Shown here in pieces: positions 14,394 to 21,351 of a stretch of 21,808 nt of DNA; position 1 is the first letter of the stretch, and every line of letters starts with the position of its first letter. Under the pieces are notes generated by a model. It was not told the origin of the DNA, ran no database searches, and saw only the letters and a list, made by a program, of their open reading frames with translations. This DNA is from a virus. The position numbers and the translations under genes were made by a program. The stretch covers positions 1 to 21,808 of IMG/VR virus record IMGVR_UViG_3300020465_000107. The stretch is one strand, 5' to 3'.

Positions 14394-17300
14394 TTATTGT
14401 TTTATAATTCTATTGTTTATATTTTTATTGTTATAAATAATATTTAAGTTATAAATACCACTTGGTAAATCTGTCATATTTATTTGGGTTATTTTTTCTT
14501 CATAAATAACTAAATTACCTACCATATCATATATTTTTATATCTATTTCTTTTGAAATATTTAACATATCAGTTACTGGATTTGGATAAATAAATAATTC
14601 GTCTAAATTTTCTTCTAATTCAACAGGCCATCCTAAATCACAATAATTATATAATTCAATACAATATGAATCCCATTCTCCTAAGCAACATTCATCATCA
14701 ATTGATACTACCCAAGCAAAACATTCATTAGGTAACCAATATGGTTCTCCTGGTCCTCCACTACATCCTGCATCATATAAACAACTTCCATCGTCTGTAT
14801 TTGCAATAGGATCATAATTATAAGCTGAAACATCTGTACATCCTATTAAAGTATCAATACATGCTCCTGAATCTGTGTTTGCTAAAGGATCATAATTGAT
14901 AGCTGTTTCATCCATACAACCTAATATTACTTCTATACATGAAAAATCTTCTACATTTGCATCTTGATTGTAATTAAATGCATTTGGATCTGTACATCCT
15001 TCGATTATTTCAATACATGAATCATTATCAACGTTTGCATCTGGATCATAATTTAATGCAGTTTCGTCTGTACAACCATAAACTATCAATATACAAGATC
15101 CATCATCTGTGTTTGCTTCTTCATTATAATTAACTGCTAAATTATTTGTACAACCTGTGACTATAGCTTCACATGTTCCGTTATCTGTGTTTGCATCTGG
15201 GTTCCAATTAAATGCTGTTGAATCAGTACAACCATATACATATGGAATACAGTAAAAGCTTTGATCACCAGTATTAGCGTCTTCATTATAATTTAATGCA
15301 GTACTATCTGTACAACCATAAATTATAGGTATGCATGTTCCATTATCTGTATTAGCTAAAGGATCATAATTAAATTGTGTATCATCAATACATCCATAAA
15401 TAAATGGTATACAAGATCCATTATCTGTATTTGCATTTTCATTGTAGTTAAATGCAGCTGCATCTGTACATCCGTAAATAAGAGGTATACATGATCCATC
15501 ATCTGTATTAGCAGTTGAATCGTAATTGAATGCCTCTTCATCAGTACAACCATATAAATAAGGTATACAACCGTTATTAGTATTTGCTAATTCATTATAA
15601 TTGAGAGCTGTTTCATCCATACAACCAATTACTACTGGAATGCAACTATCATCATCTGTGTTTGCGTTTAAATCATAATTAAATGCTTCAGGATTTGTAC
15701 ATCCATAAATGTAAGGAATACAACCTGAATTAGTATTTGCCGTCTCATCATAATTTAATGCAGTATCATCTGTACATCCAATAACTACAGCTTCACATGT
15801 GCCATCATCAGTGTTAGCATTGGAATTATAATTAAATGCTGTCTCATCTGTACAGCCTAATATTGGATAAACGCATCCAGAATTTGTATTAGCTTCTTCA
15901 CTATAATTAAGTGCTGTATCATCTGTACAACCAATGATTACTTCTTCACATGTTCCGTCATCTACATTTGCATTAATATTAAAATTAAAAGCTTCTGGAT
16001 TTGTACATCCATATACAAATGAAATACAACCAACATTAGTATTTGCTAGTTCATCATAATTAAATGCAGTTGGGTCTGTACATCCGTATGCAAATTCTAT
16101 ACAAGAACCATCGTCAGTATTTACGTTAATATCATAATTAAATTGAGTTGGGTCCATACAACCATAAACAAAAGGTTCACATGGATTGTTTTCATCTGCT
16201 GTATTTGCTTCTGAATTGTAATTAAATGCTGTTTCATCTAAACAACCGTATATAAATGGTTCACATAAATTATTATTTGTATTAACATCTACACCATTTA
16301 TTCCTGTTAGTGGGTTTCCTACTCCATCATTATCATAATCATTGTAAGTATATGAATTAGGATTCAAACAACCATAAACAAAAGGATAACAAGATCCATC
16401 ATCTGTATTGGCATCTGGATCATAATTAAATTGATTTGTTTGTGTACATCCTTCTATTACTGGTATACATGATTCATCATCTACATTTGCTTCTATATCA
16501 TAATTAAAGGCATCATCTTCCGTACAACCATAAACTACTTCAATACAAGAATCATTATCTGAATTAGCAGATGAATCATAATTAAATGCTAGTTCATTAG
16601 TACACCCATAAATAAATGGTTCACATAATAATCCATTAAAATCAAAATTAGCTTCTGGATTATAATTAAATGCAGTTCCATCTATACATCCTAATATATA
16701 AGGTATACATGGGTCAGAAAGATCGCCTATTGCTGTTCCGTTAACTGTTGCATTATAGTCAAAATTAAACATCATATCATCCATACAACCAAATACTGCA
16801 AATTCTTCACATGAACCATCATTATAATCTGCTTCTACTCCATACTCATTAATATAAGTGTAATACTCTGTATATGCTTCATTATTGCAACCTGGGTTAT
16901 AATAACATGAACCATCTGTTGTATTTGCTGTTGCAATATAATTAATGGCTTCTTCGTCTAAACATCCATAAATTTTTGGTATACAACTATCACCACATTT
17001 AGCTTCTGCCTTATAAATAAAACCATATTGGTTATAAGATAATATTGGATTTGTATATGGATTTGTTCCTCCATTTACTATTACTAATCCTACTGGATTT
17101 GTTATCTCAAATTTACATTGTTCTGCTGTTTGTTGTGAATTTCCAAATGAATAAAAATATGTATTTATCATTTCTGATGTATTCAAGTCTAAAACTGTAT
17201 CTAATTGCAGTTGATCTGATTCTAATGTAAATGGTCCCCACCAATTATCACCTTGTGTTACTACTAAAAATGATCCAGCCCAACCATTATCTCCCCAATC

Positions 17301-18905
17301 TTGTAATGTTAATGTATTACTGCAACTTGGTGTATATAATGTAGATGTAGCTTCTTCATCATAATTAAATGCATCTATATCTGTACAACCATAAACATTT
17401 AGAGTTAAACATGTCCCATCATCTTCTGTTGCATAAGCATCATATTCTACATAATCTGAATCTGTACAACCTAATATTATATCATCAATACATTCTTGGA
17501 CAAATATATTTTCTTGAAATATAGGACCAAAATTACCTCCACCTGTTGAAAGTGTATCACATGGAGTATATACTATCCAAGATCCATCTATACCTCCCCA
17601 TATTGAACCAGCTAAACCATCACCGTAAGTATCTGTTATACTAAATAAGACTGAAGTCCCATTATCAATACAAACTTGTTTTTCAACAATACCATAATCA
17701 GGAATATTACTATATGTTCCAGGTGTTACTAAATCTAACACAGTTCCTCCACCATCATATATTGCCCAACCTGTTTCTCCTTGGTATTGGTCTAATGTTA
17801 TTTCTACTGTTACTACTGTTTTACCTGATGAGCAAGATATATCAGTTCCATCACAAGAACCATCATCAATAGTTGCTGATGGATTATACATATTTGATGT
17901 TGGGTTTGTACAACCTGGTATATTAATACAAGAACCATCATTAACTCCTGCTTCAGGATTATAATTTAATGCATTTTCATCTGTACAACCATAAATAAAT
18001 GTACATGGATCCATATACCAATATTCACCTACTACTGCATTAACATTTAGTCCTGGTGAAAATGTTCCTAAATTTCCATCTGCTTCTGCTTCTGTATAGC
18101 ATACATAAATTAATACTGCTGGAGCATTACAATTACCTTGAACTTCTGCAACAAAATCTACGTAAAAGGTATTTTCACCTATATATAATTTATTTCCAAC
18201 TTCAAATATATCTTGATTATCATTAAAATAAAAATCAGGATCTACACCAAAATAATTTTGCCCCCATACTATAGTATTACAACTACCTCCTGGAAAAATT
18301 AGTCCTGATGGGAAGATTCCCGCTTCTGGATTATAATTAGATGCATTTTCATTTGTACATCCTTCAATATATTCACATGAACCATCATCACTAACTGCCT
18401 CTTCATCAAAATTAATTGCTATTTCATCTGTACAACCCTCAACTGGAGGTGCACAAGGAGCGATTGTAAGAGACTCAATTAAACCTAAACCATAATTACC
18501 TTCTGCATAAAATAAAGTATCTTGGCAATTATTAAAAACTAAACTCCATCCATCTTCGGGCCATGATAAACCATCACCCCAAGAATCTATTAATTCAAAA
18601 GTATAATCTCCTGAGTTTAATTCTATAAAATGATAAGCATCTGATTCACCATCATAATAGCCTTCTTCTATAGAATATATAGTATCAATAGTATTATATA
18701 AATACCATGATACTTCTTCTGCATAATTATCAAACTGAAAACTTACTTCAACCCAAGAATTATATAACGATAATGTATCTATTGTTTCTATTATAGTATC
18801 AGTAATAGGTGGTGGGGGTGGTGGGGGTGGGTAAGGGGGATCAACAATTGTGTCTTGTGAAAATATTAGTAAGGGTAATAGTAGTAATAGTAAAAACTTT
18901 TTCAT
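14394..18905 (-). CDS. Giant secreted Cys-repeat protein with T9SS sorting domain
   Basis: This 1503-residue protein is built for export. Residues 1-17 are a signal peptide (ending IFSQ), followed by a Pro-rich stretch (23-33). About residues 48-145 and 360-465 are two related beta-sandwich modules, each with a D-x-[WY]-GDGL loop; a third, weaker copy is near 530-600 (DWGDNGW). Interleaved and then in tandem are 33 Cys modules of the form GCTD ... A-x-NY ... AN-x-DDGSC; modules 7-33 are contiguous. Residues about 1436-1503 are a type A T9SS sorting domain (FIYPNPVTDMLNI; IKIYDMVGNLV; LPSGIYNL; final IIKQ), normally removed when Bacteroidota export and anchor proteins at the surface. It starts 3 bases after the holin-like gene. 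Likely roles are surface masking, adhesion or a released factor; none is shown. Confidence 0.9.
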   Translation of the reverse strand: MKKFLLLLLLPLLIFSQDTIVDPPYPPPPPPPPITDTIIETIDTLSLYNSWVEVSFQFDNYAEEVSWYLYNTIDTIYSIEEGYYDGESDAYHFIELNSGDYTFELIDSWGDGLSWPEDGWSLVFNNCQDTLFYAEGNYGLGLIESLTIAPCAPPVEGCTDEIAINFDEEAVSDDGSCEYIEGCTNENASNYNPEAGIFPSGLIFPGGSCNTIVWGQNYFGVDPDFYFNDNQDIFEVGNKLYIGENTFYVDFVAEVQGNCNAPAVLIYVCYTEAEADGNLGTFSPGLNVNAVVGEYWYMDPCTFIYGCTDENALNYNPEAGVNDGSCINIPGCTNPTSNMYNPSATIDDGSCDGTDISCSSGKTVVTVEITLDQYQGETGWAIYDGGGTVLDLVTPGTYSNIPDYGIVEKQVCIDNGTSVLFSITDTYGDGLAGSIWGGIDGSWIVYTPCDTLSTGGGNFGPIFQENIFVQECIDDIILGCTDSDYVEYDAYATEDDGTCLTLNVYGCTDIDAFNYDEEATSTLYTPSCSNTLTLQDWGDNGWAGSFLVVTQGDNWWGPFTLESDQLQLDTVLDLNTSEMINTYFYSFGNSQQTAEQCKFEITNPVGLVIVNGGTNPYTNPILSYNQYGFIYKAEAKCGDSCIPKIYGCLDEEAINYIATANTTDGSCYYNPGCNNEAYTEYYTYINEYGVEADYNDGSCEEFAVFGCMDDMMFNFDYNATVNGTAIGDLSDPCIPYILGCIDGTAFNYNPEANFDFNGLLCEPFIYGCTNELAFNYDSSANSDNDSCIEVVYGCTEDDAFNYDIEANVDDESCIPVIEGCTQTNQFNYDPDANTDDGSCYPFVYGCLNPNSYTYNDYDNDGVGNPLTGINGVDVNTNNNLCEPFIYGCLDETAFNYNSEANTADENNPCEPFVYGCMDPTQFNYDINVNTDDGSCIEFAYGCTDPTAFNYDELANTNVGCISFVYGCTNPEAFNFNINANVDDGTCEEVIIGCTDDTALNYSEEANTNSGCVYPILGCTDETAFNYNSNANTDDGTCEAVVIGCTDDTALNYDETANTNSGCIPYIYGCTNPEAFNYDLNANTDDDSCIPVVIGCMDETALNYNELANTNNGCIPYLYGCTDEEAFNYDSTANTDDGSCIPLIYGCTDAAAFNYNENANTDNGSCIPFIYGCIDDTQFNYDPLANTDNGTCIPIIYGCTDSTALNYNEDANTGDQSFYCIPYVYGCTDSTAFNWNPDANTDNGTCEAIVTGCTNNLAVNYNEEANTDDGSCILIVYGCTDETALNYDPDANVDNDSCIEIIEGCTDPNAFNYNQDANVEDFSCIEVILGCMDETAINYDPLANTDSGACIDTLIGCTDVSAYNYDPIANTDDGSCLYDAGCSGGPGEPYWLPNECFAWVVSIDDECCLGEWDSYCIELYNYCDLGWPVELEENLDELFIYPNPVTDMLNISKEIDIKIYDMVGNLVIYEEKITQINMTDLPSGIYNLNIIYNNKNINNRIIKQ
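14397..14600 (-). other. Region encoding T9SS type A C-terminal sorting domain
   Basis: Codons 1436-1503 of the giant protein encode the sorting signal. The hallmarks are YPNPV at the start, a middle IYDMVGN strand-turn, LPSGIYNL, and a basic C-terminus. In Bacteroidota this ~70-residue domain takes a cargo through the T9SS pore and is cleaved during attachment to the surface. Its presence means the phage product depends on host secretion. Confidence 0.85.
14769..16967 (-). repeat. Tandem array of 27 Cys modules (~78-bp unit)
   Basis: Codons 647-1379 hold modules 7-33 back to back, most 25-26 residues (75-78 bases) long, each starting GC and carrying a second Cys near the end. Conserved positions are the GCT(D/N) start, an A-x-N-(Y/F) core and AN-x-DDGSC. 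A few units are longer: module 8 (34 residues), 9 (33) and 14 (42). The spacing suggests one disulphide per module and acidic loops that could bind calcium; both are inferred. The repeats are in frame and diverged, so the array is coding and not a CRISPR. Confidence 0.92.
18814..18839 (+). other. Potential G-quadruplex in polyproline region
   Basis: The plus strand, which is the template for the giant gene, has four G-runs in 26 bases: 814-818, 823-827, 829-831 and 835-839 (add 18000), with loops of 4, 1 and 3 bases. This fits the usual G3+N1-7 quadruplex pattern and is striking in such AT-rich DNA. It encodes the Pro-rich stretch after the signal peptide, so selection for proline codons may be the whole explanation. 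Confidence 0.5.
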
Positions 18906-19760: not shown

Positions 19761-20822
19761 TTAAAATATTTTGTAATTAATTCCGAATGAGAAATTATGC
19801 CATTCTCTATTCCAATATTTATTGTATTTACCTTCTATAAATATACCTAAATTTTTATTAAACCAATAACCAAAAATTAATCCCCCAGAATAATCTATCC
19901 ATTGACCTCCTTGAAAATTTTGATATGAATATTCATTATCATCTAACCAATGTAGGGGTAAAATATTTCCCCATGCATGTAACCAAAAATCTTTTTTATA
20001 GCTATAATAATCAAACCCTGCTATTAATGAATGGTTCCATACATTAGGTAGTTTATTTTTTTCATTTATTACATATTCATCTAATACTTGTGGTATGATA
20101 ACTTCTTCCCATACTTCATTTGAATTTGCAACTATATTCCCATTTGGGTCTGTGTATATTTCATTAAAAGGATCTATTTCGTATCCTTCTTGTAACGCTA
20201 AATATGTGTAATGTAAATTACCATTTTCTAATACCCATTCATCTAATGGATTAAAACCATAAGGTTCTGAAATTCTTTGTGCTACTCCTATACTGAACGA
20301 TAATTTTTTATTGACTTTTTGTCTGAATCTTTGTGATCCTTCAAAATATTCTATATCAGCAAATCCATCTTTTAAATATTCTGTTTTAACCATCCATTTA
20401 TCTGCAACATATCTTAAAAAATGGTGTTGATCAAAAAATGTTAGGCCTTGTTGTCTTTTATATTCTCCTTGAAATAAAAATTCAAATCCAGAAACTTTAC
20501 CTATTGTTGCAGCGTCACTAAATGAATTTTCTGTTCCTTTTTTAAATGCTTCTTTAGGTAAATATCCAAATCTTGCAATTTTTCTTACTCCAAATATTAT
20601 AGAATAATCAAAAGGAGTTTCTATAACACTTTGATTTAAAGTACCTGTTGTTATAGAATATGTATCATCATCAGCTAAAGAGGTTCCTCCATTTACTCCT
20701 CCATAAAATGTAGAAAATTTAGTAAATTTTTTAAATTCTTTTTTTAAATCGAATGATTTTTTATCAGTTTGACCAAACATAAGAAAAGGAATGACCAATA
20801 GCGAAACTAATAGTTTTTTCAT
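19761..20822 (-). CDS. Phage-encoded outer-membrane beta-barrel-like protein
   Basis: This 353-residue protein has a signal peptide (MKKLLVSLLVIPFLMFGQ, ending FGQ) and then a beta-rich mature part with alternating aromatic/polar strands: FSTFYGGVNGG, FDYSIIFGVRK, KLSFSIGVAQR, HSLIAGFDYYSY, YSGGLIFGYWF, LGIFIEGKYNKYW and HNFSFGINYKIF. The final residue is Phe, the usual end of outer-membrane barrels recognised by the Bam machinery. One central stretch (about 200-250, acidic) could be an external loop. It is the first gene after the tmRNA terminator and a promoter-like box. Phages sometimes express surface proteins to block superinfection; that role is inferred. It is unlikely to be a virion protein because it carries a signal peptide. 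Confidence 0.68.
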   Translation of the reverse strand: MKKLLVSLLVIPFLMFGQTDKKSFDLKKEFKKFTKFSTFYGGVNGGTSLADDDTYSITTGTLNQSVIETPFDYSIIFGVRKIARFGYLPKEAFKKGTENSFSDAATIGKVSGFEFLFQGEYKRQQGLTFFDQHHFLRYVADKWMVKTEYLKDGFADIEYFEGSQRFRQKVNKKLSFSIGVAQRISEPYGFNPLDEWVLENGNLHYTYLALQEGYEIDPFNEIYTDPNGNIVANSNEVWEEVIIPQVLDEYVINEKNKLPNVWNHSLIAGFDYYSYKKDFWLHAWGNILPLHWLDDNEYSYQNFQGGQWIDYSGGLIFGYWFNKNLGIFIEGKYNKYWNREWHNFSFGINYKIF

Positions 20823-20832
20823 TATAATGTTT

Positions 20833-20848
20833 TTTTATAATAAATATA
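20833..20848 (-). promoter_or_regulatory. Promoter-like box TATATTTATTATAAAA
   Basis: This minus-strand sequence (20848-20833) lies 10 bases before the ATG at 20822 and directly behind the tmRNA terminator. It differs from the boxes at 4849 and 9409 at one position (T for A after TATATTTAT). A terminator followed by a new promoter box is what a transcription-unit boundary should look like, so this is the best-placed copy of the motif. Confidence 0.52.
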
Positions 20849-20854
20849 GGAAAG

Positions 20855-20884
20855 AAAAATAAAAAAGCAGCTCTTTCGAGCTGC
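20855..20884 (-). terminator. Intrinsic terminator of the tmRNA gene
   Basis: On the minus strand GCAGCTC-GAAA-GAGCTGC (20884-20867) forms a perfect 7-bp, GC-rich stem with a GNRA (GAAA) tetraloop closed by C-G, followed at once by TTTTTTATTTTT. This is a textbook Rho-independent terminator and the strongest hairpin in the window. It ends the permuted tmRNA transcript and may remain as its 3' hairpin. Confidence 0.93.
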
Positions 20885-21187
20885 TTCTAGGATTTTTACG
20901 ACATGATCCTTGTTTACCGTGTGGCTAGGATACCTCTTAGGCAGCCATTGCAACTGTTTGCTCAATAGTAGCAACATCCTCCTTTGCAAGAGATCTAATT
21001 GCATACATAAGAGCGAAAACAGAAGCGTTCGCCGTTTTAACCTGTTTGCCGGTTACTGCGTTGGTCTTCCTTATATCCTTACTTGCTGTCAAATCCAGTC
21101 ATCCCCATATCTTAAATATTTTTTAGTGGAGATGCCGGGAATCGAACCCGGGTCCAAACAAGCAGCTAATATAAGTACTAGCGACCA
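20867..21187 (-). ncRNA. ssrA: Circularly permuted (two-piece type) tmRNA
   Basis: tmRNA frees stalled ribosomes and tags the nascent protein. The tRNA-like halves are in reverse order. The acceptor piece comes first (21187-21127): a TpsiC arm CCGGG-UUCGAUU-CCCGG (21151-21135), then CAUCUCC and discriminator A. After a 20-base spacer (21126-21107) comes the coding piece: GGGGAUG (21106-21100), then ACUGGAUUUGACAGC, the tmRNA D-arm signature. GGGGAUG and CAUCUCC give a full 7-bp acceptor stem (one G-U). H2 also pairs across the pieces: AUAUAAG with CUUAUAU, AGCAAG with CUUGUU, and GACC with GGUC. CCA is not encoded (ACUA follows the stem). AACC/GGUU before the tag may be part of PK1. The transcript ends at the terminator. 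Mature ends are inferred. Confidence 0.92.
20937..21032 (-). other. tmRNA tag reading frame, 31 residues, ends AMAA
   Basis: Starting with GCG at 21032, the frame reads ANASVFALMY ... ATIEQTVAMAA and stops at TAA (20939-20937). An AN start and a hydrophobic/AA end are typical of degradation tags (compare E. coli ANDENYALAA). Codon GCG as resume codon is inferred because this is the frame that reaches an AA-stop end; the alternative GGC frame stops after 12 residues with a poor end. At 31 residues the tag is unusually long. Confidence 0.72.
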
Positions 21188-21199
21188 ATTATAAATATA
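21184..21199 (-). promoter_or_regulatory. Promoter-like box upstream of tmRNA
   Basis: Minus-strand TATATTTATAATTGGT (21199-21184) repeats the first 12 bases of the boxes at 4849 and 9409. A start site about 6-8 bases after the box would fall at GGTCGC (about 21187), which is the segment that can pair with GACC of the coding piece. A shared box therefore suggests that the tmRNA is expressed with the same phage gene class as the structural genes. Confidence 0.5.
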
Positions 21200-21210
21200 T
21201 AAATTATATT

Positions 21211-21351
21211 TTAGTATTCCAAATTTAGATGGATATCTTCTATTGTATCTTTTATTTCTTTTAATGATTTTAAAATTTCATCTTTAGTTAATTGAGAATC
21301 TCTTTCTATATCATCAATAAGAGTTTCTATTTTATCTAGTAATCTTTCCAT
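21211..21351 (-). CDS. Small acidic helical protein, 46 residues
   Basis: The ATG at 21351 overlaps the stop of the upstream gene (TAATG), and the frame stops at 21211. The product, starting MERLLDKIETLIDDIERDSQ, is one long amphipathic helix with heptad spacing (L/I at a and d positions) and an acidic charge, ending HLNLEY. It probably dimerises. No family is recognised. The coupled start, 46 clean codons and AT-ending codons like its neighbours support a real gene. It is the last gene before the tmRNA, whose promoter-like box begins 11 bases beyond the stop. Confidence 0.6.
   Translation of the reverse strand: MERLLDKIETLIDDIERDSQLTKDEILKSLKEIKDTIEDIHLNLEY

Follow-up and report, generated by a model that had tools for sequence, protein, structure and literature searches.

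Does the minus strand of this locus hold a circularly permuted tmRNA gene, from which bacterial lineage did its rearrangement come, and is the gene still in working order? The window, meaning the whole stretch of DNA that was analysed, corresponds to a 21,808-base IMG/VR contig; among its genes, which are all on the minus strand, are those for the baseplate wedge proteins of a myovirus. Our analyses show that it contains a circularly permuted tmRNA gene. The whole is quite likely best explained as a working permuted tmRNA of a marine Bacteroidota myovirus. On balance, the gene probably also represents a further independent permutation in the Bacteroidota tmRNA lineage, so far seen only in the phages of that lineage, in which one subgroup carries a translated 27-codon hairpin and a 37-residue tag. 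The gene and its pieces are as follows.

20862-21191, minus strand: complete permuted tmRNA gene (ARAGORN and Rfam tmRNA_permuted)
21124-21186, minus strand: acceptor piece, with the H2 3' strand, T-arm, acceptor-stem 3' strand and discriminator A (RF04321 alignment and pair counts)
21107-21123, minus strand: intervening sequence of 17 nt (RF04321 match and alignment)
20889-21106, minus strand: coding piece, with the acceptor-stem 5' strand, D-segment, H2 5' strand, tag ORF and one pseudoknot (RF04321, alignment and pair counts)

The permuted order, acceptor half upstream of coding half, had been proposed in a preliminary description of this DNA and is borne out in three ways. ARAGORN calls a permuted tmRNA at 20846-21218; the Rfam model tmRNA_permuted (RF04321) gives a full-length match (model positions 1-213) at 20937-21186, with 82.7 bits and an E-value of 8.5e-15 against a gathering cut-off of 47 bits; and the order of the halves, with the 17-nt spacer between them, can be read straight from the sequence. 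The RF04321 score alone is not decisive, because its cut-off is unspecific: four proteobacterial genes (L163-L166) that are one-piece by ARAGORN reach 54-65 bits, and proteobacterial permuted genes score 104-162 bits. The match spans the whole gene and not merely a tRNA-like fragment, and the betaproteobacterial model beta_tmRNA (RF01850), the best-scoring of the three older models of the clan, above the cyanobacterial RF01851, reaches 48.7 bits, under its own cut-off of 84. No one-piece tmRNA was matched at the family cut-off in the window contig or in 17 others, contigs that may be fragments; the weaker matches to one-piece models in these 18 cover pieces of T-arms, most of which belong to the permuted gene. 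SmpB was not found in the same 18, possibly fragmentary, contigs. The tail position of the acceptor piece reads CUA, so that CCA would have to be completed post-transcriptionally.

Relatives were drawn from IMG/VR by means of a neighbouring protein and DNA patterns, and 14 genes were aligned. Across these genes, 90.4% of cells pair in the structure derived from the window, compared with 38-48% when the partners are slid, the total being lowered by a terminator hairpin that is confined to the window's subgroup, and two-sided changes occur at 23 of the 49 pairs. The principal helices are:

21100-21106, minus strand: acceptor-stem 5' strand GGGGAUG, 7 bp with CAUCUCC at 21128-21134, including G3:U70 (paired in 14/14)
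21135-21151, minus strand: T-arm, loop UUCGAUU (100% paired, 2/5 pairs covarying)
21063-21085, minus strand: H2 5' strand, three blocks with 21159-21186 (covariation in each block; pairing 98% in the outer two, 77% in the inner)
20889-20920, minus strand: H-type pseudoknot after the tag, 20916-20920/20898-20902 and 20906-20910/20889-20893 (14-gene pair counts)

The acceptor stem and H2, which had been predicted to form only across the two pieces, do so, and both helices are kept in the relatives. H2 covaries; the acceptor stem is invariant throughout, including G3:U70, the alanine tRNA identity pair, and so contributes no covariation. All five pairs of the pseudoknot stem covary (95% paired), and its second helix is 93% paired with one-sided changes. 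RNAalifold, given the nine short-tag genes alone, returned an identical tRNA-like core. A short hairpin, AACY/RGUU, surrounds the resume codon (window 21039-21054); it is paired in 14/14 with one compensatory change, and would pair the frame-setting A. In four relatives (L008, L010, L087, L128), the protein-coding gene upstream seems to extend into the tmRNA, with its UAG stop inside the acceptor piece.

Evidence on the host comes from elsewhere in the window.

14403-14591, minus strand: Por_Secre_tail, the type IX secretion C-terminal sorting domain of a 1503-aa repeat protein (host evidence)

Type IX secretion is a Bacteroidota system. The sorting domain also exceeds its cut-off in the Flavobacterium immuto phage and in six tmRNA-bearing relatives, whereas among 14 control genomes Bacteroides alone matches, below the cut-off; its absence from shorter contigs carries little weight. 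For the wedge protein, Microcystis phage Mel-JY01 (48.8% identity) and the Flavobacterium immuto-group phages (46.5%) rank as the nearest annotated isolates; for a second window protein an immuto phage comes first. Since the domain is present and its secretion system belongs to Bacteroidota, a Bacteroidota host is the best reading, and the phage very probably has one, in keeping with the initial suggestion. The structural genes of Mel-JY01 (PP395634.1, L110) resemble those of these Bacteroidota phages, and its stated cyanobacterial host may be open to question. The 1503-aa protein (window 14394-18905) combines repeats resembling GCTDxxAxNYxxxAxxDDGSC with the type IX tail in a phage-encoded product, and has no relatives in the phage isolate collection. 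Directly after the tmRNA, a 353-aa protein (window 19761-20822) has a signal peptide and appears by eye to resemble an outer-membrane barrel; it has 393 relatives in IMG/VR, and the phage isolate collection gave none.

A search of IMG/VR for Gly-first tags found eight one-piece tmRNAs whose tags read GENNYALAA, GEENYALAA or GEYNYAMAA; one of these tmRNAs matches one-piece genes in Parabacteroides, Phocaeicola and Bacteroides records, all with Gly-first tags. The Parabacteroides gene has the same acceptor stem as the phage gene (GGGGAUG/CAUCUCC), a near-identical D-segment, the segment GGUUUUGACAGC in common with one phage relative (L008), and the resume context UUAACU followed by GGCGAA in common with the sister phages. 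The window gene likewise has a Bacteroidota-type D-segment and a Gly resume codon in the context UAACY followed by GGC; its UUUUGACAG D-segment, T-arm and acceptor stem match Bacteroidota one-piece genes, and not the alphaproteobacterial genes or the pelagiphage gene. In the 22 alphaproteobacterial permuted genes compared, the T-loop is GGC(G/A)G(U/C)A, the resume codon Ala and the D-segment different; these marks (a GGCGGUA-type T-loop, a AUAGGAUCGACG-type D-segment and an Ala resume codon) are absent from the phage gene. Four betaproteobacterial genes differ from the phage genes in both D-segment (UUUCGAC) and resume codon, and the window gene falls short of the RF01850 cut-off and resumes at Gly, not Ala. 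Judged by model rank, a cyanobacterial lineage is not indicated either, RF01851 not being the best of its clan.

A tree of the tRNA-like domain placed the phage genes with the Bacteroidota one-piece genes (support 88/73), with only 76-94 columns carrying signal. AU tests rejected none of the alternatives, whether phage with alpha (p 0.07-0.19), phage with beta (0.17-0.29) or a single clade of all permuted genes (0.07-0.10); on the tRNA-like domain alone the alternatives gave p 0.07-0.25, and a first, noisier tree run gave mixed AU results. Pattern scans of GTDB for a permuted tmRNA on Bacteroidota chromosomes gave no match in one case and, in the other, four Burkholderiales loci only.

Two origins had been offered for the gene, independent permutation or acquisition from elsewhere. 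The sequence features, and more weakly the tree, favour a permutation separate from the proteobacterial ones and arising from a Bacteroidota one-piece tmRNA; acquisition was not rejected by the AU tests. The latter would have the permuted gene taken from an alpha- or betaproteobacterial tmRNA, perhaps via a marine phage, and then converging on the Bacteroidota resume codon and tag. Marine phages do often carry permuted tmRNAs (PMC9004378), beta_tmRNA outscores the other two older models, the AU tests reject neither the phage-beta nor the phage-alpha grouping, and common resume and tag features could reflect adaptation to a Bacteroidota host; against this, the D-segment, T-arm and acceptor stem, which lie outside the tag, match Bacteroidota one-piece genes, and the best tree joins the phages with those genes. 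We regard proteobacterial acquisition as unlikely, if still worth serious consideration, and retain separate permutation within the Bacteroidota lineage as the preferred account.

The tag itself was delimited by comparison among relatives.

20937-21050, minus strand: tag ORF, resume codon GGC, 37 codons GKQVKTANASVFALMYAIRSLAKEDVATIEQTVAMAA, stop UAA (frame kept in five full genes and in the decayed L128)

The resume GGC stands at 21050-21048 and the tag reads GKQV...AMAA, with an internal peptide such as SLAKEDVATIEQ; the frame ends in AA ahead of the stop. This GGC is common to the window and four relatives, all with exactly 37 codons in the open frame, whereas sister phages have 10-aa tags, such as GEQVEMAMAA, from GGC according to ARAGORN. 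The A residues at -4 and -3 of GGC are invariant in 14/14, and in E. coli the frame is set by position -4, which is nearly always A (PMC2481249). For the window ARAGORN prints the tag AMAA, which is too short, as the frame extends upstream to the GGC common to the relatives. Translation might instead resume at GCG or GCA after the AACY/RGUU hairpin, in which case the tag would have 31 aa here and 4 aa (AMAA) in the sister phages. Such a reading would account for the ARAGORN output and for the presence of that hairpin, with its compensatory change, in every aligned sequence, and pelagiphage HTVC008M has a similar hairpin before its resume codon; yet with the downstream GCG as resume codon at least six sequences lack the A at -4, and the codon is not constant, being GUG in L005 and ACG in L007. 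GGC with A at -4 is, by comparison, common to most Bacteroidota one-piece genes and to other phage types with tags of 11-16 aa. Resumption at GCG or GCA is thus improbable, and GGC is taken as the resume codon below. A degenerate tag pattern gave no match in a search of viral contigs, and a supposed amphipathic helix in the tag proved no better than in shuffled peptides.

The difference between the 37-codon and the 10-codon tags is due to a single segment.

20949-21029, minus strand: in-frame insertion of 27 codons (81 nt) relative to the 10-aa tag of sister phages (14-gene alignment)
20950-21026, minus strand: long hairpin of 30 pairs with bulges inside the insertion (folding, redraw tests and pair changes)

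The insertion folds as one long hairpin in the window and its relatives, and its frame is open and of equal length in all six sequences. When synonymous codons were redrawn from the window's usage, 0-9 of 1000 redraws were as stable for each of the six; reshuffling the gene's own synonymous codons gave a weaker signal (2-27 of 500 as stable). Two-sided changes occur at 5 of the 30 pairs, compared with 1.2 in shuffles. Strong selection on the inserted peptide was not seen (pN/pS 0.78, weak amino-acid constraint). Because the redraw and pair-change tests are positive and the peptide is weakly constrained, the RNA fold seems to have been kept alongside the frame, and the hairpin seems to be conserved in six diverged genes more strongly than the peptide alone would demand. 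A mobile palindrome was also considered and rejected, no second convincing copy of the insertion being present in the window or the fetched loci. Our best guess is that the hairpin serves as a compact structural element in place of the pseudoknots absent from the shortened RNA.

In T4 gene 60, translational bypass is linked with a hairpin in the coding sequence. A long hairpin in a myovirus coding sequence recalls that case, as a lead only, and the segment might accordingly go untranslated, being either bypassed or cut by a double-strand RNase to yield a short tag or a truncated template; this we consider very unlikely, given that the frame is open through six inserts of equal length and that the edge codons, which bypassing requires to match, differ in L005 and L007.

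Two further elements flank the gene and bear on its expression.

21189-21199, minus strand: TATATTTATAA element, promoter-like, immediately upstream of the acceptor piece (spacing to genes)
20863-20888, minus strand: intrinsic terminator directly after the gene, an 11-pair stem and U-run

The motif TATATTTATWA has five minus-strand copies in the window, one before the acceptor piece and four 22-30 nt before gene starts, and most tmRNA relatives have a similar element at equal spacing. Ahead of genes in other relatives, enrichment is confined to the TATATTTATTA form (10/24), so that the element is no more than a probable promoter.

If this is a working tmRNA, transcription of the gene would start at its own promoter-like element and end at its own terminator, and the spacer would be excised by host tRNA enzymes, leaving two RNAs that the acceptor stem and H2, whose pairing is described above, would hold together. 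The acceptor, with G3:U70, would be charged by the host alanyl-tRNA synthetase, and host SmpB, the phage having no SmpB that we could see, would deliver the tmRNA to ribosomes stalled on broken mRNA. Translation would then resume at GGC and add the 37-residue tag ending in AMAA, whereupon the ribosome would be released and the stalled protein marked for proteolysis. The gene would most likely go back to a one-piece Bacteroidota tmRNA that was permuted independently of the proteobacterial ones, and the tag ORF of the window's subgroup would later have gained the 81-nt segment in frame and kept it as an RNA hairpin.

One long-tag relative (L128, 2349-2549) has lost the acceptor 5' strand, D-segment and H2 5' strand, which may reflect decay, recombination or misassembly: either the gene can decay or this contig is misassembled. 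The window gene might by analogy be an inactive relic, or an inhibitory decoy sequestering SmpB in the manner of mycobacteriophage DS6A, in which a gene with the tRNA-like domain only has been reported (PMC4131195; PMC11915505). That precedent, and the relative without the front of its coding piece, speak for the idea; retention of the tag frame, stop codon, resume context and pseudoknot in diverged relatives, and the terminator directly after the gene, make it highly improbable, and a working tmRNA remains our preferred explanation.

Permuted tmRNAs in marine phages are as such already known: among 133 unique structures of phage tmRNA, 53 are two-piece forms, and 50 of these come from marine or aquatic samples (PMC9004378). 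What look new are the Bacteroidota-type permuted tmRNA, of which no report was found in the open-access literature, supplementary tables aside, and the 37-residue tag with its hairpin insert. Earlier work traced permuted tmRNA to three main clades of bacteria (PMC11915505); a phage permuted gene of Bacteroidota type would add an origin, and would suggest phages as a possible birthplace of such rearrangements. A tag ORF that has to be translated through a long hairpin, yet is maintained at exactly 37 codons, offers a direct test of the tolerance of the tag region, and of whether a phage tmRNA has roles other than labelling proteins for degradation.

Among known systems, the gene shares with the alphaproteobacterial, betaproteobacterial and cyanobacterial tmRNAs of RF04321 the order of pieces, the spacer, the acceptor stem and H2 formed across pieces, G3:U70, a tag ORF with its stop, and a full-length model match above the cut-off; it differs from them in its Gly rather than Ala resume codon, its Bacteroidota-like D-segment and T-arm, and its 37-aa tag with a hairpin insertion. 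It resembles the Bacteroidota one-piece tmRNA of Parabacteroides distasonis (L175) in acceptor stem, D-segment, resume context and Gly-first tag, and the AMAA tag end recurs in another one-piece gene (L173), but the phage gene is permuted, has one pseudoknot after the tag and has 37 tag codons against 9. Other permuted phage tmRNAs also carry Gly-first tags: in eight (L093, L095, L096, L099, L101, L103, L105, L106; GTYNTPLALAA) the stretch after H2 resembles the betaproteobacterial form, and in five (L091, L104, L108, L094, L100) the tags are of 13-16 aa, for example GKVINLFSAPVRLAA. The tmRNA genes of mycobacteriophages and Streptomyces phages, compared here by tag and DNA match, are also carried by phages and have annotated tags such as AVDTDVDFAMWEAELASDLVAA and ANSNVASAYALAA; their DNA matches the window in the T-arm only. 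Like the tmRNAs of Melnitz and of pelagiphage HTVC008M, the window gene is phage-borne, marine and permuted; unlike them, it is of Bacteroidota type, the Melnitz gene being placed by its authors with alphaproteobacterial genes (PMC9004378) and the HTVC008M tag being Ala-first, ANFNEYALAA.
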